From Bacteroidota bacterium (lineage in GTDB: Bacteria; Bacteroidota; Ignavibacteria; Ignavibacteriales; Melioribacteraceae), in the NCBI GenBank assembly GCA_021820065.1, contig JAKAEE010000005.1, forward strand, positions 20,781 to 84,780: a DNA stretch of 64,000 bases. Direction: 5' to 3'. Shown here in pieces: positions 11,348-24,715 of the stretch. A model generated the notes under the pieces. It made no database searches. It was given only the letters and a program-made list of their open reading frames with translations, and was not told the DNA's origin. Each line of letters starts with the position of its first letter. Position 1 is the stretch's first letter. Both the position numbers and the translations under genes were made by a program.

Positions 11348-14300
11348 ATGAAAAGTGATCCGCTAAAATATTTTAGACTCAATCCTATAAAAGCTGCGCG
11401 TGTTTCCGAAGTAAGCGAAGCAACGGCTTCTTCGGATATTCCTTCCGAGGAACGAGTTAACTTTCATATCGGTAATCCGGTACAGGATAAAGAACTGTTC
11501 TCGGCTTATCTTCGCATTGCTCTCGGTATCGATATAAGAAAAGAAAATCTAACCGAAGATAATCTTAACGATTTCGTTGAAGAACTTGGCTGGTCGAACG
11601 AAGACAAAAAGAAAATTGAACTGATTCTTTCGCTGATAAAAAAGAGCGCGCCTTACATGCCGCGCGGCGGATTCAACAAAAAAGATCCGAACTATCTCGC
11701 AAAATATTTCAGTGAATGGCTCACAAAGCAGCAGCAGGAACCGTTGTCGTATGATCTTGGTAATGTTACCGGAAATCGCGAAGTAATACTTGCTTCCGGA
11801 GGAGTAATTGAAGCGCTTCGGATTTTATTTCATGCGCTATCAAGTTTCTTAACTTACCGTCCAGCTACTATTTTCTTGTATGATTTTTCTTTGCCGGAAC
11901 ATCTTCAAGCTTTTGAATCGCTGGAATTTAAAACTCTTCCTTCCGAAGAGAAAAGTTTTCTTCATGAACTGGAATATGGATTAAAACAAAGTCCATCTTT
12001 GCCAACGTTTTTAGTCCTAGGAGGAGTTACCAAAGAGGAGACGAGAAGAAATCTTCGGCAGTTGAGTTTGGAATATCCTCTTTTTTTTATTGAAGTGAAC
12101 GACGCGCCGAATCATCTTTCTCTTGCGCGCGAAGCAAAAATGATGAATCGTGTGTTGAGAATTCTAACACCTGGAATATTTTCACCGGAGCTGAAAAATC
12201 TTTCGACGGTTTTTGTTGCAGGCAGTTCCGATATGCTGAAAGTCGTTGAGACAATTCAATTTCAGTTGAAAGGAACTCCGTCTGCATCCGAAGTTGAATT
12301 GCTTTCTTTTCTTTTGAAGGAAAATGTTTTTGGAAAAGAAAGCAGAGAACCGGAAAATGAAATAGTTGTTGAACCGGCGTATGAGCATTTCCAGCTTCCT
12401 ATACTCGACGACAATCCGCTCAAGATTTATGCGAAGCAGTTTGAAGATAAGCTCAGTTCAATCATCGAACAAAAATCAAAAGCCGTTGAAGATATAATTA
12501 CCAATCTGACTCCCGGCGAAAACTATTTTTCGTTCAAGACCGAACAGTTGTCTGCGTACTTTCCAAATGACAAATTTTCCGGCAAGGATACGAGAGAATG
12601 TTTCGATGAATTTGTCGGAAATATTCACTCGGACACTTCAAATTCTGAGGTTGTCAAAAGTTTTCTTTCGGCTTTCCTTGGTCATCATCCCGAATACGAT
12701 GCCAAGAATGCACTTGTTGTAAGCGGTTCTTCTCGTACTGCGCTGGGACTGCTCGGATTTCATTGCGGAATAAGAGAAGTAGTCATTCCGGATTTAAGCT
12801 GGACGTACGAACATTGTTTCCCGTCGGTTTCTGTGATTCCGTTAACGGATGATTACGAACTCGATGTTGACGGGATTATTCGCGAAGTCAAAAATAAATT
12901 AGCGATCGATCCGAACTGGAAAAGTTATGGCGCTGTTGCGCTGAATAATCCTCACAATGCAACCGGGCAGGAATTCAATTCCGATGATGTGAAACGTTTG
13001 GTTAAGTGGCTGCTCGAAAGAAATATTTTTGTGATCGATGACCTCTCATATCAAAACGTTGCACCTATTGACGGACTGAAGGAAATCAAGACGATCCGGC
13101 AGTTAACCGATGAACTTCATGGCAACGGTTACATTAGCGATGACCACGCCAAACATTTGGTTACGGTTCACTCGCTTTCCAAAACGGATTCATTTGCGGG
13201 CGCACGATTGTCTGTTATCGAAATTCGCCACGATGAACTTTACCAAAGATTCAAAAAAATCAACGACACAATAAAACCAAACATTGCGGCAATCTTTACT
13301 GCGTATCTTTTCTACCGCAGCAAAACAGAAACTGCGAATGCATATTGGCGGCTGAGGAACAAAATTTTTAAAGAGCGGATGGATTCGCTCGAACAAGCCG
13401 TTGATATTCTTCCGAAGGTTAGAAACAGATTCGATATAAAAATCAAAGCGCCGAAAGGCAGTATGTACCCGCAGATGATAATCGATAAACTTCCATCCGG
13501 GTTGTCGCTCGATTGGCTTTCGTCGGGATTGGCGCGGCAGGGAATCGGACTCGTTCCGCTTTCCACATTCGCGCGCACGGAAAAAGGTTTTGAGATCGGC
13601 CGCAAAACTTTTCGATTAACTTTGGGCGGAACAGACAACGCTGAAACTCTTCTCAAGAAAACCAGAAGAGTATTGATTGATCTGAATCGAATGATTGCGG
13701 AAGAAGCGGCGCATTACAACCGTAAAAAATTTGAAGAGAAATCGCTTTCGATAAAGAAATCATCTCCACCGAAAGATTACGTTTCTGTTTGGGCATCCAT
13801 CGAAAAACAAATTCTTGACGAGTGCCGTAATGTTTCTTTGAATCAATTGATCCTCAATAACGAAGAATGGCGGGATAAAGAATATCGAAAAAGATTTTCG
13901 GAAGAATTTTTGCCGGAAAGACTTTCTCTGTTTAGACAGAGATTCAATGATCGGGTGATGATTGCTAATGAACTGATTGAAACTGTCCGCGCAGACAAAG
14001 GGAAATCTTTCATTGCAAGACTTGAGGAAGAATTCTACAAAGATAATCTTGAACGACGTGAAAAAGTTTTTCGCGAAAGATTGTACGACCGCACTGTTCA
14101 CCCAACACAAATGTACTCGCTGAGATCGGAATTAAATTTTGAAGAGCTGATCGAACGTGTAGTTAAGGACAAAAATATTCCTGCTACGCTGGTTCAAAAG
14201 ACTGCGCAGGAATTAATAAGAGAATACTTCGGATTGAACGTTGCAATTTCTTCCAGCGAGGAACCATCTGAACTAATTCTCGATCTCAAATCAATGATCA

Positions 14301-16960
14301 CGGCGGAAAACTACTTGCAGCTTTATTCCGATGTACCACATCAAACATTTTTATCTTTCTGGGGCGATTGGGACGGCAGCAACAGACCATCGGGACAAGG
14401 ACACAGTTTAGTTGCGGCGGTTCTAATTCGAAACGTTGCGCAACAATCAAGACTACTGCAAGCACTTTTGAGAGCGGATAAAACCGTTAAGATCGAAACA
14501 AGTCTTCTGAATGAAATAGAAAAATTGCCCGAGACGAATAAACGTTTTTCAAAATTGCTGAATGAAATCACTCAGCTCACTCACCAGCTTGAGAAAAGAT
14601 ACCGAGGCGTTCTTCCTTTTAATCTAAAGCCGGGCAAGATCAGACAGCTTGGAATGAAGATGCGCATCGCTCAAGATCCGTTGACTTCACTGTGGCATCA
14701 CAACGATAGACTTGAAAGAAAAATGCTTGAACTCAGAACGCAGAGAAGAAATGCGCTCGAATATTATTTCTCGCTCAACAAGCAAATCAGAAAGACTTTA
14801 CACGCATTGATAAACTTTATTCCCAAGAATCTTGACAATGCGGAATTGCTGCGCGAGGCTTCGTCATATAAAGATTTGTTGAAACGTTTTGTTATCACGC
14901 CGCGCATCCATCAGAAAATGATTACCGCGCAAGATCAGTTTGCAATCGATACGACGGTTCACAACATAAACGAGATAAATGAAATTGCAGCCAAGTACGG
15001 AAATCCGGGAATGGTTTTGGCTCTGCAGGTTAGTATGTCAACTACACCGGAGGCGCTGATATCGCTGGATAGAAAAATGCGCGCGCGCCGCGAGCAATCG
15101 TTGCGCGACAATCACAATCTCGAAATTCCGTCGGTCCGGCTCGTTCCGCTGTTTGAAGACATTGATGCATCTAAGAATTTGAAAAACTATTTGAATAAAA
15201 TTTGGGAATACTCACTTCAAAGCAGAAGACTGAATCAAACTACCGGTGAAAGATTTAACGAAATAATCAGCGAAGTATTTATCGCCGGTTCTGATTTGAG
15301 TCAGCAAGTCGGACAAGCCGCCGGCATGAATTTGTTCAAAGAAGCGAAGTATGAATTGATTTCTTGGCTTTCGGAAAAAGAATTGGTTGGCAAAGTAAGA
15401 ATGAAAATGGGAAGCGGAGAACCGATGCAGCGGCAAGGCGGCTATTACGAACCGAATTCAGGTCGATCCGCATTCTTAAAATCCAACGACAATGGAAAAA
15501 GATTTTCGGAACACCTCAGCAAATCGACAAAGCAAAGCACTGTGTATGCCCGGACTCCGCTGCTCGGAGTTTTTTCTGAAGGTGATTTGCGAACATTTCA
15601 GAGCAACATTTCGGAAAAGTTGAGATACCTTCCCGTTAGTGAACTTTCACAATTGCTCTTTCACGTGAAGGAATCGCAGAAGTTTTATGAAACCGAAATT
15701 GTCCGCGCGGGCGAACCGTTGGTAGAAACGCGTCTGCAATTCAAAACACGCGGACTGAAAGAATTGGAACGTCTCACAATCGGTTTCAAAGATAAAATGT
15801 TCGATGAATTTCTGAATCACTTCACCGAAAACTTTAGACAAATTCTTTACGGAAGGGAAGAAGACGTTGTCGGCATTCATATCATTTCATATTTCATTGC
15901 AAGAACAACGCCGTCGTTAAGAGATAGACCTACCGTGCGACCCGGAAAAGGTGATTCCGGAAACGACAGTCAGAAAATCCTCAGAAAAATTTCCGAGATG
16001 ATTCCGTTTTCCCGTTACGGAAGTTTGCTTCGAGCTATCGCGCATAATCAATCGCAAACCGCTGTACTGGGAATAAATCAACTAACCACTGGGCTTTTCC
16101 GCGCACTGGATAGTTTTGCTCAAAAGGAGTTTACGCACGGCGAAGCATCGGCATTCATCGAAGATAGAATTCTTCCGCACCTACCGGTCTATGAAATTTT
16201 GCACACGCTAAGAATTTATCAAGACGAGAAGTTGCAGTACCTTGGCAAATTGGAAAATGCCTTCCCGGCAGGCAACTCGGCATTCTTAGCTTTGCGGGAA
16301 GATATGGACTCGCTAAACAAATATTTAATTTTATTTCAGCGCGAGTTGCTGCGGCGACATGGATTGAATGTTAATGATTTCTTCGAAGCCGATAAATTTA
16401 TTCCCGATCTTCTGCCGACGTTGCGACCTGACATAGCAGTTTTGCTTCAGCAAAATTTATTCAACACCGAACCGGAAATATTTTTATCGGACATTCACGG
16501 AAATGTTGATCCGAACTGGGTTGAATCGGTAAGAAAATTGCTCAGAGTTCCGGAAGAAGTAAAACTATGGCGGAAGAAAATTTGGGATCTTCTTGAACAG
16601 CCGGTATTCCAGCGCGTTGCAAGTTTTGTCGAGCTTGCGATCGCACTGCATTCATTGGCATCGAAAAACGGCTCGGCGGAACTTTCACTCGGTTCAAGAA
16701 AAATAAAACTGCCGACGAATCTTTCGCACGTTATCAAAGCGTCTAACGATGATAACATGCATCAGTTTCTCGCCGCAGCATTCGAATATTTGTCAATCGT
16801 TTCCGAAGGAATGGTTGAGGTGCCTATCAATATTATTCGTGCAGTGAAGGAAGTTGAGCGGATTATAAAAATTGAAGAGCAGGCGCTCTCGCCGAAACAG
16901 CAGGACCTTTTGAGATTTTATCTGCTTCAGATTGCGCGTCTTACTGGAGAAAATGGATAA
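11348..16960 (+). CDS. 1870-aa protein: degenerate aminotransferase-like domain, class I/II PLP aminotransferase-like domain, and PEP carboxylase-like C-terminal region
   Basis: Second domain: ALNNPHNATGQ, VIDDLSYQN, HSLSKTDSFAGARLS (PLP Lys). First domain: VNFHIGNP, ILASGGVIEALRILF, VFVAGSSDMLKVVETIQFQLKGTPSASEVEL, no Lys motif. C-terminal: TVHPTQ, FWGDWDGSNRP, VRLVPLFEDID, EVFIAGSDLSQQVGQAAG, KMGSGEPMQRQGGY, reminiscent of PEPC motifs in the same order. Confidence 0.7.
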   Translation: MKSDPLKYFRLNPIKAARVSEVSEATASSDIPSEERVNFHIGNPVQDKELFSAYLRIALGIDIRKENLTEDNLNDFVEELGWSNEDKKKIELILSLIKKSAPYMPRGGFNKKDPNYLAKYFSEWLTKQQQEPLSYDLGNVTGNREVILASGGVIEALRILFHALSSFLTYRPATIFLYDFSLPEHLQAFESLEFKTLPSEEKSFLHELEYGLKQSPSLPTFLVLGGVTKEETRRNLRQLSLEYPLFFIEVNDAPNHLSLAREAKMMNRVLRILTPGIFSPELKNLSTVFVAGSSDMLKVVETIQFQLKGTPSASEVELLSFLLKENVFGKESREPENEIVVEPAYEHFQLPILDDNPLKIYAKQFEDKLSSIIEQKSKAVEDIITNLTPGENYFSFKTEQLSAYFPNDKFSGKDTRECFDEFVGNIHSDTSNSEVVKSFLSAFLGHHPEYDAKNALVVSGSSRTALGLLGFHCGIREVVIPDLSWTYEHCFPSVSVIPLTDDYELDVDGIIREVKNKLAIDPNWKSYGAVALNNPHNATGQEFNSDDVKRLVKWLLERNIFVIDDLSYQNVAPIDGLKEIKTIRQLTDELHGNGYISDDHAKHLVTVHSLSKTDSFAGARLSVIEIRHDELYQRFKKINDTIKPNIAAIFTAYLFYRSKTETANAYWRLRNKIFKERMDSLEQAVDILPKVRNRFDIKIKAPKGSMYPQMIIDKLPSGLSLDWLSSGLARQGIGLVPLSTFARTEKGFEIGRKTFRLTLGGTDNAETLLKKTRRVLIDLNRMIAEEAAHYNRKKFEEKSLSIKKSSPPKDYVSVWASIEKQILDECRNVSLNQLILNNEEWRDKEYRKRFSEEFLPERLSLFRQRFNDRVMIANELIETVRADKGKSFIARLEEEFYKDNLERREKVFRERLYDRTVHPTQMYSLRSELNFEELIERVVKDKNIPATLVQKTAQELIREYFGLNVAISSSEEPSELILDLKSMITAENYLQLYSDVPHQTFLSFWGDWDGSNRPSGQGHSLVAAVLIRNVAQQSRLLQALLRADKTVKIETSLLNEIEKLPETNKRFSKLLNEITQLTHQLEKRYRGVLPFNLKPGKIRQLGMKMRIAQDPLTSLWHHNDRLERKMLELRTQRRNALEYYFSLNKQIRKTLHALINFIPKNLDNAELLREASSYKDLLKRFVITPRIHQKMITAQDQFAIDTTVHNINEINEIAAKYGNPGMVLALQVSMSTTPEALISLDRKMRARREQSLRDNHNLEIPSVRLVPLFEDIDASKNLKNYLNKIWEYSLQSRRLNQTTGERFNEIISEVFIAGSDLSQQVGQAAGMNLFKEAKYELISWLSEKELVGKVRMKMGSGEPMQRQGGYYEPNSGRSAFLKSNDNGKRFSEHLSKSTKQSTVYARTPLLGVFSEGDLRTFQSNISEKLRYLPVSELSQLLFHVKESQKFYETEIVRAGEPLVETRLQFKTRGLKELERLTIGFKDKMFDEFLNHFTENFRQILYGREEDVVGIHIISYFIARTTPSLRDRPTVRPGKGDSGNDSQKILRKISEMIPFSRYGSLLRAIAHNQSQTAVLGINQLTTGLFRALDSFAQKEFTHGEASAFIEDRILPHLPVYEILHTLRIYQDEKLQYLGKLENAFPAGNSAFLALREDMDSLNKYLILFQRELLRRHGLNVNDFFEADKFIPDLLPTLRPDIAVLLQQNLFNTEPEIFLSDIHGNVDPNWVESVRKLLRVPEEVKLWRKKIWDLLEQPVFQRVASFVELAIALHSLASKNGSAELSLGSRKIKLPTNLSHVIKASNDDNMHQFLAAAFEYLSIVSEGMVEVPINIIRAVKEVERIIKIEEQALSPKQQDLLRFYLLQIARLTGENG

Positions 16961-17043
16961 GCCCGTTCCGTTATTGAAAAAAATTTTCACCTGATCAATA
17001 TTCCTATTGACATCGCACGTTTCGAAACATATCTTTGCATCCA

Positions 17044-17139
17044 ATGAAAATGAACGTCGAAACATATTACAACAATTCAAACGCAAGCCGGATGCTTTGG
17101 TGGTGGCGAATGGATAAATACGAGGTTCCGGTGAATTAG
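17044..17139 (+). CDS. trpL: trp leader peptide MKMNVETYYNNSNASRMLWWWRMDKYEVPVN (31 aa)
   Basis: Short ORF with three consecutive TGG codons (17098..17106), ~110 bp upstream of trpE and just before an intrinsic terminator. Confidence 0.85.
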   Translation: MKMNVETYYNNSNASRMLWWWRMDKYEVPVN

Positions 17140-17166
17140 AGTAATATGTTATTATATAAATTAACA

Positions 17167-17205
17167 AACCCTTCTTGGATTCACCGGGAAGGGTTTTTTG
17201 TTTTT
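17167..17205 (+). terminator. trp attenuator (intrinsic terminator)
   Basis: 12-bp stem AACCCTTCTTGG / CCGGGAAGGGTT with ATTCA loop, then TTTTTTGTTTTT; CCGGTGAAT at 17128..17136 is exactly complementary to ATTCACCGG at 17179..17187 (antiterminator). Confidence 0.85.
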
Positions 17206-17249: not shown

Positions 17250-18728
17250 ATGAATTTCCAAACATTTTTAGAATTGTCGAAGACATACAACAAAATTCCG
17301 GTTTATGAAAAGATAACCGCGGATTTGTTAACGCCGGTTTTGGCTTACCTTAAAATTCGGGAAGCCGGTTCAAACAGTTTTCTTCTGGAATCTATCGAGG
17401 GAATCGGAAGACTCGCGCGCTACTCGTTCATCAGCAAGAATCCTTCAAGAGTTTTTATGAATGAAGGGGAACGGCTCACCATCGTCGAATCGAACAAAAG
17501 CACAACAATCACAAAAAATATTTTTGATTATCTCTCCGAAGAAATTTCAAAATCCAAAGATCCTAAGATTGAAGAACTACCCGATTTCACCGGCGGAATT
17601 GTCGGTTACCTCGGTTATGAAAACGTTGCGTTGATCGAGGATGTGATTAAATTCAGCGGTGAAAAACAAATCGACATTCCCGATTCCATGTTCGGCGTTT
17701 ACGATACATTGATTGCGTTCGATCACTATAAGCATCAAATAATTTTAATTAGGAATGTGAGTATTGATTCGGACACGAATCCAGAAACAGCTTATGCCGA
17801 TGCGAAAGAAAAACTTCGAGAACTTCGTGCACAGCTGAACGCGCCGTTTAATTCAGATCTGAAATTTTCAGCTTCTCAGGATTACAATAACGGTTTAGAT
17901 AACCAAACGTATTTTAATTTCGTTGAAAAATGTAAAGACAATATTATTGAGGGGGACGTTTTCCAGATCGTTTTTTCAAAAAGATTCTCCACAAAGTTTG
18001 AAGGTGATCTTCTAAATGTTTACCGCGCGCTTAGAATAATCAACCCATCACCTTACATGTATTTTATGGAATATGAAAATGATCTTACGGTGATCGGCAC
18101 CTCACCTGAGGATTTGTTAAAAGTAAAAAACAAACGCGCAACAATTTTGCCGATTGCCGGAACTCGAAGAAGAGGAAAAAACCAAGAGGAAGATTTACGA
18201 ATCGAGAAAGAACTCTATGCCGATCCGAAAGAAATAGCTGAACACACAATGCTCGTTGATCTCGCGCGCAATGACTTGGGACGCGTTTGCAAGTACGGGA
18301 GTGTGGAAGTAACCGAAAGCATGAACATACACCGCTTCTCTCACGTGATGCATATCGTTTCAAAGGTTGAAGGAAATCTGGATGATGATAAGAATTGTAT
18401 CGACGCATTGAAAGCAAGTTTCCCCGCGGGAACGGTTTCCGGCGCGCCGAAGATAAGAGCGATTCAAATTCTGAATGATTACGAAAATTTACGCCGCGGA
18501 ATTTATGCGGGTGCTGTCGGATACATTGACTTCAAAGGAAATCTTGATATGTGTATTGCTATCAGAACATTGTTCGCAAATGGTGAAAACATTTACTGGC
18601 AAGCCGGCGGAGGATTAGTTGCCGATAGTAAACCGGAATTGGAATTGAAAGAGGTAACCAACAAATCGGCGGTTTTGGTTAACGCGTTAAAATATGCAGA
18701 GGTGATTGATGAAAGTCCTGGTAATTGA
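17250..18728 (+). CDS. trpE: Anthranilate synthase component I
   Basis: LLESIEGIGRLARYSFI, chorismate-binding signature (GTSPEDLLKVK, PIAGTRRRGKN, ASFPAGTVSGAPKIRA). Confidence 0.96.
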   Translation: MNFQTFLELSKTYNKIPVYEKITADLLTPVLAYLKIREAGSNSFLLESIEGIGRLARYSFISKNPSRVFMNEGERLTIVESNKSTTITKNIFDYLSEEISKSKDPKIEELPDFTGGIVGYLGYENVALIEDVIKFSGEKQIDIPDSMFGVYDTLIAFDHYKHQIILIRNVSIDSDTNPETAYADAKEKLRELRAQLNAPFNSDLKFSASQDYNNGLDNQTYFNFVEKCKDNIIEGDVFQIVFSKRFSTKFEGDLLNVYRALRIINPSPYMYFMEYENDLTVIGTSPEDLLKVKNKRATILPIAGTRRRGKNQEEDLRIEKELYADPKEIAEHTMLVDLARNDLGRVCKYGSVEVTESMNIHRFSHVMHIVSKVEGNLDDDKNCIDALKASFPAGTVSGAPKIRAIQILNDYENLRRGIYAGAVGYIDFKGNLDMCIAIRTLFANGENIYWQAGGGLVADSKPELELKEVTNKSAVLVNALKYAEVIDESPGN

Positions 18729-19275
18729 TAATTACGATTCGTTCACGTTTAATCTTGTACAGCTCATCGGCAAGTTAACCGGAAACGTGATTGTTCGACG
18801 AAACGATAGAACGTCTCTCGACGAAATAAATCAATTGAAGCCGGATAAGATTGTTGTGTCTCCAGGTCCCGGAAGACCGGAGGATTCAAAGGTTTCTCTC
18901 GATGCAATCAAAGAGTGCGGAAAAACCGTTGATGTACTTGGCGTTTGCCTTGGTCATCAGGGAATCGGAATCTCATTTGGCAGTAAAGTTGTGAAAGCGC
19001 CTCAGCTTATGCATGGTAAATCATCACAAATAATTCACGATGGGAAAAATATTTACAAAGATGTTTCGCAAAAGTTTAATGCCGGAAGATACCACTCGCT
19101 TGTGATAGACCGCGACTCATTGAGCAGCGAATTGGAAATCACTTCCGAGACTGAAGACGGAATAATCATGGGAGTCCGGCACAAAAAATATCGCATCGAA
19201 GGAATTCAATTCCACCCGGAATCGGTATTAACTCCGGAAGGAGAAAAAATAATTAAAAACTGGTTGGCGCTATGA
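18706..19275 (+). CDS. trpG: Anthranilate synthase component II (glutamine amidotransferase)
   Basis: LVIDNYDSFTFNL, SPGPGRPED, GVCLGHQ catalytic Cys, QFHPES. Confidence 0.96.
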   Translation: MMKVLVIDNYDSFTFNLVQLIGKLTGNVIVRRNDRTSLDEINQLKPDKIVVSPGPGRPEDSKVSLDAIKECGKTVDVLGVCLGHQGIGISFGSKVVKAPQLMHGKSSQIIHDGKNIYKDVSQKFNAGRYHSLVIDRDSLSSELEITSETEDGIIMGVRHKKYRIEGIQFHPESVLTPEGEKIIKNWLAL

Positions 19276-20291
19276 AAGGATATTTGGAAAAAATAATTGA
19301 TGGGAATCACCTGTCGTTCGATGAAGCGTACAAAGTGATGTATGCGGTGATGAGCGGCGAGGTGAACAATTCGAGAATCGCTTCGCTTCTCACTGCTTTG
19401 AGAATGAAAAAAGAAACTCCTGAAGAAGTTGCCGGATTTGTAAAAGCGATGCGTGAGAAAGTAATCAAAATAAAATGCGACGACGAAAACGTGATCGACG
19501 TTTGCGGAACCGGAGGAGACGGATCTGGATCATTCAACATTTCAACCGCAGTTGCATTTGTGGTTGCCGGCGCCGGAGTGAAAGTTGCAAAACATGGCAA
19601 CCGTTCGATCTCAAGTAAAAGCGGAAGCTCCGATGTTCTTCACGAACTCGGTGTTGATGTTCAGCTCTCACCGGAACTTTCAGAGAAAGCCTTGAATGAA
19701 ATCGGAATAGCATTTCTTTTCGCGCCAATGTATCACCCGGCAATGAAACACGTTGCGCCGATTCGAAAGGAACTTGAGTTCAGATCGATCTTCAACATTC
19801 TGGGACCGTTGACTAATCCAGCCGGAACAAAAAGACAATTAATCGGAACGTTCAATGATGCGACCGCAAAACTGATGTCGGAAGCGGTAAAATTTCTTGA
19901 GATGAAAAAAGTCTGCTTCCTCTGCACCAATAATTCATTTGATGAAGTCAGCTTAACTCATCCGACGAATGTGATTGAAGCGGCCGGAAATAATTCGTTC
20001 CATATTTACGAATTGACGCATGAATCGTTCGGTTTTCCAAAACTGGAATTGAGCGACATACAAGGCGGAACGGCAAAAGAGAATGCAGAGATAATTCACA
20101 AAATATTTTCCGGCAAGGAAAAGTCGCCAGGTTATTTTGTTGTGGCGGCGAATGCTGCGTTGGCGCTCAAAGTTGCCGGTGTCTCGGACGACTTGAAAGA
20201 GTGTATCGCGATTGCCGAAGAGTCCATTCAATCCGGGAAAACACTAAAAAAACTTTTGGAGTTGAAAGAGTTCGGAGAGAAGAACAAATGA
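19272..20291 (+). CDS. trpD: Anthranilate phosphoribosyltransferase
   Basis: DVCGTGGDGSGSFNIST, KHGNRSISSKSGSSDVLHELG. Confidence 0.96.
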   Translation: MKGYLEKIIDGNHLSFDEAYKVMYAVMSGEVNNSRIASLLTALRMKKETPEEVAGFVKAMREKVIKIKCDDENVIDVCGTGGDGSGSFNISTAVAFVVAGAGVKVAKHGNRSISSKSGSSDVLHELGVDVQLSPELSEKALNEIGIAFLFAPMYHPAMKHVAPIRKELEFRSIFNILGPLTNPAGTKRQLIGTFNDATAKLMSEAVKFLEMKKVCFLCTNNSFDEVSLTHPTNVIEAAGNNSFHIYELTHESFGFPKLELSDIQGGTAKENAEIIHKIFSGKEKSPGYFVVAANAALALKVAGVSDDLKECIAIAEESIQSGKTLKKLLELKEFGEKNK

Positions 20292-21082
20292 GCTTCCTTC
20301 AAAAAATATTGGATGTGAAGAAAGAGGAAGTCTCAGAACTGCGCCGCAAATTCACGCGCGGGAGTTTTCGCAGCATTGAAATGTTTGGCAAGAGAAGACT
20401 CGGCTTGGAAACCGCACTGAGCGATAAAACAAAAATCAACATCATCGCGGAGATAAAAAAGGCGAGTCCTTCCAAAGGAATTTTGAAAAACGATTTTGAT
20501 CATACTGCGATCGCGAAAAGTTATTTGAAATGCGAAGCCGACGCAACATCAGTTTTGACTGACAAACAATTTTTTCAAGGGGATATTTCATTCTTAAAAG
20601 ACATAGCCAAAATTAAAACTGTTCCGCTGCTTAGAAAAGATTTTATTATAGATGAGTTTCAGATTCTTGAAGCGAAAGCAAACGGTGCCGATGCAGTTTT
20701 ACTGATCGCGGAGGCATTGTCTGCTCAACAAATTGATGAACTAACCGAAGCGGCTAAAGCAAACGATCTGGAAGTTTTGCTCGAACTTCATTCGGAGAAG
20801 CAGCTTGATAAAATTGATTTTGCACGGAACAAGATCATCGGCATTAACAATCGCGACCTGGAAACTTTTAACGTTAATATCAGAACGACCGAAGAAATTG
20901 CGAAACAACTTCCTAATGATGTTTTGATTGTCTCCGAGAGCGGCATTAATTCAGAAGTAGTGCTGGGTCAACTTAAAAAAATAAATGTGAATGCTGTCCT
21001 CGTCGGCGAACATTTTATGAAGTCGGATAATATTGAAAAGTCTCTCAAAGAATTTGCCGGATGGTGCAAATATGAAAGTTAA
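20288..21082 (+). CDS. trpC: Indole-3-glycerol phosphate synthase
   Basis: MSFLQKILDVKKEEV start (ATG 20288; listed ORF starts too early), IIAEIKKASPSKG, PLLRKDFIIDEFQI, IGINNRDL. Confidence 0.95.
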   Translation: MSFLQKILDVKKEEVSELRRKFTRGSFRSIEMFGKRRLGLETALSDKTKINIIAEIKKASPSKGILKNDFDHTAIAKSYLKCEADATSVLTDKQFFQGDISFLKDIAKIKTVPLLRKDFIIDEFQILEAKANGADAVLLIAEALSAQQIDELTEAAKANDLEVLLELHSEKQLDKIDFARNKIIGINNRDLETFNVNIRTTEEIAKQLPNDVLIVSESGINSEVVLGQLKKINVNAVLVGEHFMKSDNIEKSLKEFAGWCKYES

Positions 21083-21692
21083 GATTTGCGGAATCACCAA
21101 CATCGAAGATGCATTGCTGTGTTGTGAATACGGCGCAGACGCAGTCGGATTCATCTTCTATGAAAAGAGCAAGCGCCACGTTTCGTTTGATCAAGCCGAA
21201 TTAATTTCGAAACAACTGCCGCCTTTTATTTTCAAAGTTGGCGTGTTTGTAAACGAAGTGGCGGAAAAAGTTAATCGAGCGGCTAAACAGATTGGATTAA
21301 ACGCAATTCAGCTTCACGGAGACGAATTACCGGAGTACATCGAAAGAATAAATTATCCGGTCATCAAATCGTTCCGCATCGATGAAACCTTTGATTGGAA
21401 AACAATCGACACATTTGAGAATTGTGATATTCTGTTCGATACATTTTCAAGCGATCAAATGGGCGGAACTGGAAAATCATTTGATTGGAATTTGATCCCG
21501 GAGAAGTTAAGAAGCAGAGTAATTCTCTCCGGCGGAATTACAATCGATAAGCTGGATTTCATTTTCAGCGAAATCAAACCAGCTGCGATTGACCTTTCGT
21601 CATCGCTGGAATCATTGCCGGGTAAGAAAGACATACAAAAAGTAATCGAATTTCTAAAACTATTTAACGAACTAAGGAGTAATCAATGCTGA
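21072..21692 (+). CDS. trpF: Phosphoribosylanthranilate isomerase
   Basis: MKVKICGITNIEDALLC, AVGFIFYEKSKR, LSGGIT; start at ATG 21072. Confidence 0.94.
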   Translation: MKVKICGITNIEDALLCCEYGADAVGFIFYEKSKRHVSFDQAELISKQLPPFIFKVGVFVNEVAEKVNRAAKQIGLNAIQLHGDELPEYIERINYPVIKSFRIDETFDWKTIDTFENCDILFDTFSSDQMGGTGKSFDWNLIPEKLRSRVILSGGITIDKLDFIFSEIKPAAIDLSSSLESLPGKKDIQKVIEFLKLFNELRSNQC

Positions 21693-22726
21693 TTATTATG
21701 GGACTCGAGTCGCCTCGAGAAGATATAAATAGGGTAAAGGAAAAAATTATTGAGCTTAGCTGCACACCGCACGAAATTCCGGGCAGTTCAAAACTCGCAA
21801 TCGGAATTACCGGCGCAACTCATTTGCTGAAGGAAGAAGATTTCCAGATGATGCACTCGGTGCAGGAAGTGGTTCGCGTCACGAAAAAATTTAAGCTCGT
21901 CAGCCGGCAAATGAAGAGCAACGACACAATAATTGATTTCGGCGGACCTACAGTAGGCGGCAAAGAACTTTTTGTTATTGCCGGACCGTGTTCCGTTGAG
22001 AACCGTGAACAGACGTTTGAGATTGCAGGACAGTTGAAAGAGATGGGAATCAATTTCTTCCGTGCCGGCGCTTACAAACCGCGCTCAAGTCCGTACACGT
22101 TTCAAGGACTGAAAGAAAAAGGTTTGGAAATTCTTGACGAGGTAAAACGAAAATTTGGTCTTAAGATAGTTACCGAGGTGATGAACTCTCAATCACTTCA
22201 GTCGGTTTGTGAAGTCGCGGATATTATCCAGATTGGCGCGCGCAACATGCAGAATTATTCTTTGCTGGAAGAAATTGGCGCGACTCAAAAACCGGTTCTG
22301 CTGAAACGCGGAATGTCTGCCACCGTTGAAGATCTTCTTCTCAGCGCCGAGTACATTGCAGCGCAAAGCAACTATAATATTATTTTGTGCGAAAGAGGAA
22401 TTAGAACGTTTGAGACTTCAACACGCAACACTCTGGACCTGAACGCGATTCCGGTGATCAAGCAGTGGTCGCATTTGCCCGTCATTGTTGATCCGTCCCA
22501 TGGTGTTGGTATTTGGGATAAGGTTCCGCAGATGTCGATGGCGGCAATCGCATGCGGCGCTGATGGTTTGATGATTGAAGTTCACAACGATCCCGAGAAT
22601 GCCTTGTCGGACGGATATCAATCGTTAACGCCGAAAAAATTTAAGGAGCTGTTGAACAAATTGAATGAACTGGCTCCAATTGTAAATAAGGAAATGAAGT
22701 TATATGAAAACGCAAACAGCTTATAA
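21686..22726 (+). CDS. aroF: 3-deoxy-7-phosphoheptulonate (DAHP) synthase with N-terminal regulatory domain
   Basis: [53 protein letters not shown]. Confidence 0.94.
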
Positions 22727-23915
22727 TTTTCCGGACGCCAAAGGAAAGTTCGGTATTTACGGCGGTAAGTTCGTACCGGAAACTTTGATCTCGGCACTCA
22801 CTGAATTGGAAAAACTTTATCGAGAGGCAAGACACGACAAAGAATTTCAAGACGAACTTGATTCGCTGCAGAGAGAATACAACGGAAGACCGACGCCGCT
22901 CACTTTTGCAAAACGTTTAACCGATCATTATGGCAAAGCAAAAATATATTTGAAGCGGGAAGATTTGTGTCACACCGGCGCGCATAAATTAAATAACGCA
23001 CTCGGACAAATTCTTCTCGCGAAGAAACTCGGCAAAACAAGAATCATCGCAGAGACCGGAGCTGGTCAGCACGGCGTTGCAACTGCAACTGTTTGTGCAA
23101 AGTTCGGTTTGAAATGTGTTGTGTATATGGGCGAAGTTGATATAGAACGGCAGAAGTTAAATGTCTTCAGAATGAAAATGCTCGGCGCAGAAGTCGTTCC
23201 GGTTAAATCGGGCAGCAGAACATTGAAAGACGCGACGAGCGAAGCAATACGTGATTGGGTTACAAATGTATCGGACACACATTACATAATCGGTTCTGTC
23301 GTCGGTCCGCATCCGTATCCAATGATTGTTCGCGATTTTCAATCTGTTATTGGAAATGAAACAAAAGATCAACTGAGAAATTCTGAAAACCAATTACCGG
23401 ATTATATCGTCGCATGTGTCGGCGGCGGCTCAAATGCGATAGGAATATTTTATCCTTTCATTAACGATAAAAACGTAAAACTAATTGGAGTAGAAGCTGC
23501 GGGATACGGAATTGATTCGGGGAAACATTGCGCAACATTAACATTAGGTCAGCCGGGCGTTTTTCAAGGAATGAAAACGTATCTTCTGCAAGATGCAAAT
23601 GGACAGATATCAGAAGTGCATTCTATTTCAGCCGGACTTGATTATCCCGGTGTTGGACCCGAGCACAGTCTGCTTAAAGATATTGAACGCGTGCGATACG
23701 AGTCGGTGACGGATAATGAAGCACTCGATGCAACGCTGTTGCTTTCTAAACTTGAAGGGATTCTTTCGGCGCTTGAAACTGCGCATGCGATTGCATACTT
23801 GAACAAGCTAATGCCGACAACAAACAAAGATGAAATTGTCGTCGTGAATATCAGCGGCAGAGGCGACAAGGACTTGAATACAATTATCAGTCAAATCGGG
23901 GAGAAAGTTTTATGA
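22704..23915 (+). CDS. trpB: Tryptophan synthase beta chain
   Basis: [20 protein letters not shown] (PLP Lys), [22 protein letters not shown]. Confidence 0.97.
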
Positions 23916-24715
23916 AGAAAATTTCAGAACACATTGAACAAATAAATAAGTCGGGCAGAAAAGCGCTTTCTATTTTTCTCACTGCGGGATTTCCGACAAA
24001 AGAAAATTTTGTTGAGCTGGCAACAACAGTTCTGGAAAACGGCGCAGATATGTTGGAAATCGGAATTCCATTTTCCGATCCGCTGGCAGATGGACAGATC
24101 ATTCAATCATCATCACAAGCAGCGCTTGAAAATGGAGTTACACTTAAAGATGTTTTTCATTATTGCGAGAAGATAAGTGCCAAGATAGACAAATCCCGCT
24201 TTTTGCGGGATAAACCGTTGATATTGATGGGCTATGCAAATCCAATTCTAAAATACGGTATCAAAAATTTTTGTACTGATGCCGAATCTTCCGGCGTTTC
24301 CGGTTTAATTGTGCCGGATGTTCCGCTGGAAGAATATGAATCATTCTACAACAGTGATTTTAAGAGTTTGGAAAAAATTCTTTTAACCACACCAACTTCT
24401 TCCGATGAACGAATAAAAGAAATTGATCAAAGAAGCGAAGGATTTGTTTACTGTGTGAGTGTTACCGGAACAACCGGGATCAAAAATAAATTTGATGAAA
24501 ACGTTCTGAAGAATTTGGAACGAACATATACAATCGTTAAGAAAAACAAGATGCTTATCGGCTTTGGAATTTCAAACGCACAGAACGTTAAAACGTTTGC
24601 GCCTTATTGCGATGGTGTAATCGTCGGCAGCGCAGTCATTAAAAAGATTAGCGAAGCAAAAACAATTTCCGAAATCGGTGGGTTTATAAAAGAATTAAGC
24701 GATGCTTGCGTTTAG
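23912..24715 (+). CDS. trpA: Tryptophan synthase alpha chain
   Basis: [55 protein letters not shown]. Confidence 0.95.
24193..24211. repeat. Short palindrome ATCCCGC-TTTTT-GCGGGAT inside trpA
   Basis: 7-bp perfect arms; same TCCCGC...GCGGGA core as 58244..58260. Confidence 0.6.

Follow-up and report, generated by a model that had tools for sequence, protein, structure and literature searches.

A probable ribosome-mediated transcription attenuator upstream of trpE in the class Ignavibacteria

The trp operon in the window (the whole 64,000-nucleotide stretch of DNA that was analysed) is very probably preceded by a ribosome-mediated transcription attenuator of the classic E. coli type. A trp attenuator with a WWW leader peptide had been proposed here in a sequence-only reading, and that proposal is supported by conserved Trp codons and reading frame, covarying RNA pairings and co-occurrence with trpE; the anatomy of the region and the fold predicted for each ribosome state complete the basis for our reading. 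The leader would accordingly be expected to respond to Trp. The mechanism itself is already known, and what appears to be new is its occurrence in Ignavibacteria with modest variations in architecture.

On the plus strand, where all of the leader and operon features described here lie, the region 5' of trpE runs from a promoter-like TTGACA...TATCTTTG arrangement through a 31-codon ORF to an intrinsic terminator. The probable promoter (17007..17037) combines TTGACA at 17007-17012 with the Bacteroidota-type TAnnTTTG box TATCTTTG at 17030-17037. The leader ATG is located 6 nt 3' of this box, and transcription probably starts around 17042-17045, at or just upstream of the ATG. The unannotated leader peptide ORF (17044..17139) encodes MKMNVETYYNNSNASRMLWWWRMDKYEVPVN in 31 codons followed by TAG, and its control codons TGG TGG TGG occupy 17098..17106; both had been reported previously and are present on direct reading of the sequence, as all of the coordinates reported with them proved correct. 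TGGTGGTGG is found at a single place in the 64-kb window, where 0.09 occurrences would be expected. The leader is probably translated. The first controlled gene, trpE (17250..18728; Pfam Anth_synt_I_N and Chorismate_bind), begins after a gap of 53 bp from the terminator and is followed by trpG, trpD, trpC, trpF, a DAHP synthase gene, trpB and trpA (18709..24715), giving the operon order trpEGDCF-DAHPS-trpBA from the ORF list and Pfam. Each of these downstream genes has Pfam matches except trpC (20201-21082), which was named from its translation and place alone. Upstream of the operon lies an ORF of 1870 aa (11348-16960) in which Pfam recognises an aminotransferase class I/II domain (residues 440-763) and nothing else.

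The intrinsic terminator (17166..17196; -18.3 kcal/mol) has the form AAACCCTTCTTGG-ATTCA-CCGGGAAGGGTTT followed by a U tract. It had been described as a perfect 12-bp hairpin with a T-tract; the terminator and T tract are there, but the arms at 17166-17178 and 17184-17196 form 13 pairs, two of which are G-U. Five strong terminator-like hairpins are found in the window, and a codon-run ORF is located just upstream of the trp leader hairpin only. The 5' strand of the antiterminator is the segment 2 core CCGGTGAAT (17128..17136), which adjoins the leader stop codon, and the 3' strand is segment 3, ATTCACCGG (17179..17187), within the terminator loop and 3' arm; direct reading bears out the claim that the two are exactly complementary, and the two strands covary. 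The 5' strand of the protector, segment 1 (17061..17079), includes a conserved ACATAT box, and the 3' strand (17132..17150) comprises TGAATT at 17132-17137 and GTAATATGTT at 17141-17150, both strands being assigned by folding and by a protector pairing test. The pairing of AATTCA (17074-17079) with TGAATT that was originally suggested as the protector is correct, but it is merely the inner part of a longer structure whose outer helix joins 17061-17070 with 17141-17150. The window leader is predicted to fold more stably than shuffled sequences (z -2.7), but the comparative evidence for the leader is much stronger than this score.

Comparative evidence was obtained from 58 distinct trpE leaders that were extracted from the class Ignavibacteria and aligned. 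The window comes from a member of the Ignavibacteria: the closest trpE genes among named relatives belong to Ignavibacteriales and Melioribacter MAGs. L065 (Helicobacteraceae), also among the listed relatives, lacks a leader of this kind, which counts against the reading. Every one of the 58 leaders encodes a peptide with 2-5 Trp codons and carries a terminator, and nearly all close with a AACCCTTC...GAAGGGTT-type hairpin. Measured independently of any ORF, the spacing between the ACATAT-like box and the Trp run is divisible by 3 in 43 of 46 leaders, which argues for leader translation. At least 38 of the 58 relatives have the TTGACA...TAnnTTTG arrangement 5-13 nt upstream of the leader ATG, so that the transcript probably starts at or just before the ATG.

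Both alternative pairings are maintained by compensatory changes. For the segment 3' of the Trp codons, duplexes with the cognate terminator hairpin average -17.2 kcal/mol, as compared with -13.8 kcal/mol for permuted partners (z -9.2). The aligned 8-pair antiterminator contains 46 double-change cells versus 18.4 in shuffles, with none of 500 shuffles reaching so high a value, and 79.3% of its cells are paired versus 29-40% when the strands are slid. In many relatives segment 2 pairs additionally with the terminator 5' arm (CTGAGA with TCTCAG). RNAalifold recovered the terminator alone from the leader alignment, and no protector, because protector registers shift between clades; the protector was therefore evaluated by cognate-versus-swapped duplex energies, which were -15.8 kcal/mol for cognate halves and -10.8 kcal/mol for swapped halves (z -12.3), a more striking contrast than that of the antiterminator. 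Examples of the pairing are ACATATTACTTCAATTCA / GAAGTAATATGT in L025 and GAGTCATATCGTT / AACGATATAACTC in L066. The sequence-only reading had proposed such an alignment of trpE upstream regions as its check, and had named a leader ORF and alternative pairings that are not conserved as the outcome that would speak against it; the 58 class leaders preserve every one of these features, from the Trp codons and their frame to the terminator and the antiterminator and protector pairings.

The same data bear on other ways of explaining the region. A Trp-binding factor, such as a TRAP-like protein, a T-box or a riboswitch, might regulate the operon with the ORF being incidental, and the terminator/antiterminator design is indeed common to all such systems. 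We consider this very improbable, since the leader has an evident stop codon and preserves the frame of its Trp codons, inspection of the sequence brought no (G/U)AG repeat array to notice, and no T-box or riboswitch was found at the Rfam threshold. More broadly, no T-box, PyrR or other Rfam cis-regulator matched at gathering, the best being PyrR with 26 bits against the 54 needed; this subthreshold PyrR match is explained by the terminator.

It is exceedingly improbable that the hairpin does no more than end transcription of the upstream gene (11348-16960) and that the short ORF arose by chance. That ORF does end at 16960, about 200 nt upstream, but a promoter is predicted between its end and the leader, and the Trp codons, the frame and both pairings covary in 58 leaders with differing upstream neighbours, including the relative L036, where an upstream tRNA gene has its own apparent terminator. 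In this relative, Stygiobacter electus, the trp leader lies just 3' of the tRNA-like gene and a T-run hairpin; no TTGACA/TAnnTTTG promoter was found between the tRNA-like gene and the leader, and the trp transcript may thus begin upstream of the tRNA. That the WWW peptide acts as a nascent chain, sensing free Trp by TnaC-like arrest and not by codon starvation, is scarcely credible: a conserved-W peptide could in principle stall ribosomes, but the peptide is variable across relatives except for W, what is conserved besides the Trp codons is consistent with RNA pairing, and induction by free Trp is the wrong direction for a biosynthetic operon.

Under ribosome-mediated attenuation, transcription would start just 5' of the leader ATG and a ribosome would trail the polymerase along the 31-codon leader. 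With ample charged tRNA-Trp, the ribosome would reach the stop codon at 17137 and cover segment 2, upon which the terminator would form and transcription would stop at about 17200. With scarce charged tRNA-Trp, the ribosome would stall at the three TGG codons, leaving the protector open and segment 2 free; CCGGTGAAT could then pair with ATTCACCGG upon its emergence, ahead of synthesis of the terminator base GAAGGGTTT, and the polymerase would enter trpE. The 9-bp antiterminator in the window leaves no unpaired base between its 3' strand and the GAAGGGTTT base, which suggests that the antiterminator would keep the terminator base from folding back over it. When translation is absent, segment 2 would tend to be sequestered in the protector hairpin, and the terminator would prevail. 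Because the protector's 5' strand precedes the Trp codons, a stalled ribosome would sit in the protector loop and not on the strand, a point that counts against this scheme.

Growing transcripts were folded with different stretches covered by the ribosome. Predicted folds form the antiterminator before the terminator is complete in 56/58 leaders when the ribosome is stalled on the Trp codons and in 7/58 when it is at the stop codon. For window transcripts ending at 17187-17192, the predicted antiterminator probability is 0.99-1.00 with a stalled ribosome and 0 with a ribosome at the stop. At equilibrium, the full-length stalled window transcript slightly prefers the terminator (0.6-0.8, versus 0.24-0.38 for the antiterminator), and the finished transcript is near balance (-21.1 against -21.5 kcal/mol); the switch must therefore rest on folding order. 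When no ribosome is present, the antiterminator is predicted to be favoured in some prefixes before the hairpin is complete in 37 of the 58 leaders, so that the switch would be off by default only if the protector forms first, and the models are less decisive for the ribosome-free default state. Thus ribosome position decides the predicted fold, and the protector is borne out by covariation, with mixed results in default-state folding.

Ribosome-mediated trp attenuation is textbook knowledge in Proteobacteria, where the E. coli trp antiterminator pairs with the terminator 5' arm. Like E. coli trpL (Rfam Trp_leader), the Ignavibacteria leader has a tandem-Trp leader peptide, protector, antiterminator and terminator 5' of trpE, with mutually exclusive pairing. 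The two have no sequence relation, and Rfam Trp_leader gave no match to the leader at the gathering threshold or at E<=10. They differ further in that the window antiterminator pairs with the terminator loop and 3' arm, the Trp run here lies in the protector loop, 3' of a protector strand built around the conserved ACATAT box, and probably no more than a few nucleotides precede the ATG in the transcript. The trpL transcript of Sinorhizobium meliloti, a member of another phylum, begins at the leader ORF ATG and is leaderless (PMC7298713), which resembles the RNA start near the ATG that promoter spacing alone suggests here. Classical trp attenuators with 2-3 UGG codons and cysteine-run leader peptides before cys genes have been predicted in Actinobacteria (PMC1262725), and both types have counterparts here; the published actinobacterial cys leaders lack conserved terminators, whereas those described below carry terminators and are unrelated in sequence. 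No Met leaders were reported in the actinobacterial work (PMC1262725). According to a 2010 survey, leader-peptide systems had not been shown outside Proteobacteria and Actinobacteria before its own Firmicutes cases (PMC2965389), and the B. thetaiotaomicron transcriptome revealed sORFs reminiscent of leader peptides, with trp unmentioned (PMC7366714). No description of Bacteroidota trp attenuators was found in open papers, most of the subscription literature being outside the search. The Lopatovskaya 2010 attenuation survey may have covered Bacteroidetes/Chlorobi, which makes priority for the phylum uncertain.

The leader is strongly conserved in the class Ignavibacteria, as judged by matches to a sequence model: all 29 of the scanned order-level genomes with trpE match, and no leader was found in nine scanned genomes without trpE. 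A model match in one genome without trpE (G023, L107) was rejected, there being no Trp-run leader at that place, and weak distant matches at L126, L128, L131 and L132 are ordinary terminators. Four genomes of the window's genus (G001, G005, G008 and G009) have no full trpE match, and in the three of these that were scanned with the model the leader is absent too. Divergent leaders elsewhere in the class encode YWSYW, WAWFW and WWC-type peptides. Outside the class, in a sample of the phylum, a Trp-rich (WW-type) leader followed by a terminator was present in 43 of 72 trpE upstream regions. As controls, the reverse strand gave 0/72 and shuffled sequences 0/360. The peptides, for example MKTILNNTWWWNNLRQSS, have no obvious similarity to those of Ignavibacteria.

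On balance we favor the view that Bacteroidota make general use of ribosome-mediated attenuation, with WWW leaders of independent-looking sequence on trp operons across much of the phylum, and that Ignavibacteria extend it to Met (tandem leaders with two terminators before metY), to Cys/sulfate genes, and to a Phe/Tyr leader before DAHP synthase. The trp leader offers a covariation-backed case of classical attenuation in a phylum with little documentation. As an RNA element it has no Rfam family, and it provides a rule for how Trp synthesis would be regulated in Ignavibacteria and, probably, across much of Bacteroidota. Shine-Dalgarno sequences are sparingly used in this phylum, and a leader ORF that starts near the 5' end is for that reason a natural place to test translation-transcription coupling there.

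Leaders for other amino acids surfaced through the trp leader model, and their gene names come from reading translations, with no family search. The window's own genome contains tandem Met-run leaders, MKNFVLNISAKEIAMGMMAMMMMPFNTKGDAL and MNTAKNILPIIYTMMDMMMCMMDMLYHNRDG, before an O-acetylhomoserine sulfhydrylase gene (L098:1329-1655; G000:C121:55828-56154), with one terminator each. Among 30 metY upstream regions of this family, 15 carry terminator-linked Met/Cys leaders, two each in 7 regions and one each in 8. GAAGGG or a near variant precedes the hairpin in 13 of 21 Met/Cys leaders, and this repeat is likely to be an antiterminator strand. Methionine sensing by leader-peptide stalling would be, to our knowledge, a new specificity. 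Leader ORFs rich in Cys/Met codons and followed by terminators also precede PAPS-reductase-like genes (L100, L111) and cysteine-synthase-like (L109), sulfate-binding-protein-like (L112) and sulfite-reductase-like (L130) genes. A Phe/Tyr-rich leader, KYSIYFKGYFYF / KYLFYFTGYFYF, with a terminator precedes DAHP synthase at L121 and L123, and a WWWW leader with a terminator is located 5' of a second, TrpB2-like trpB (L103, G257).
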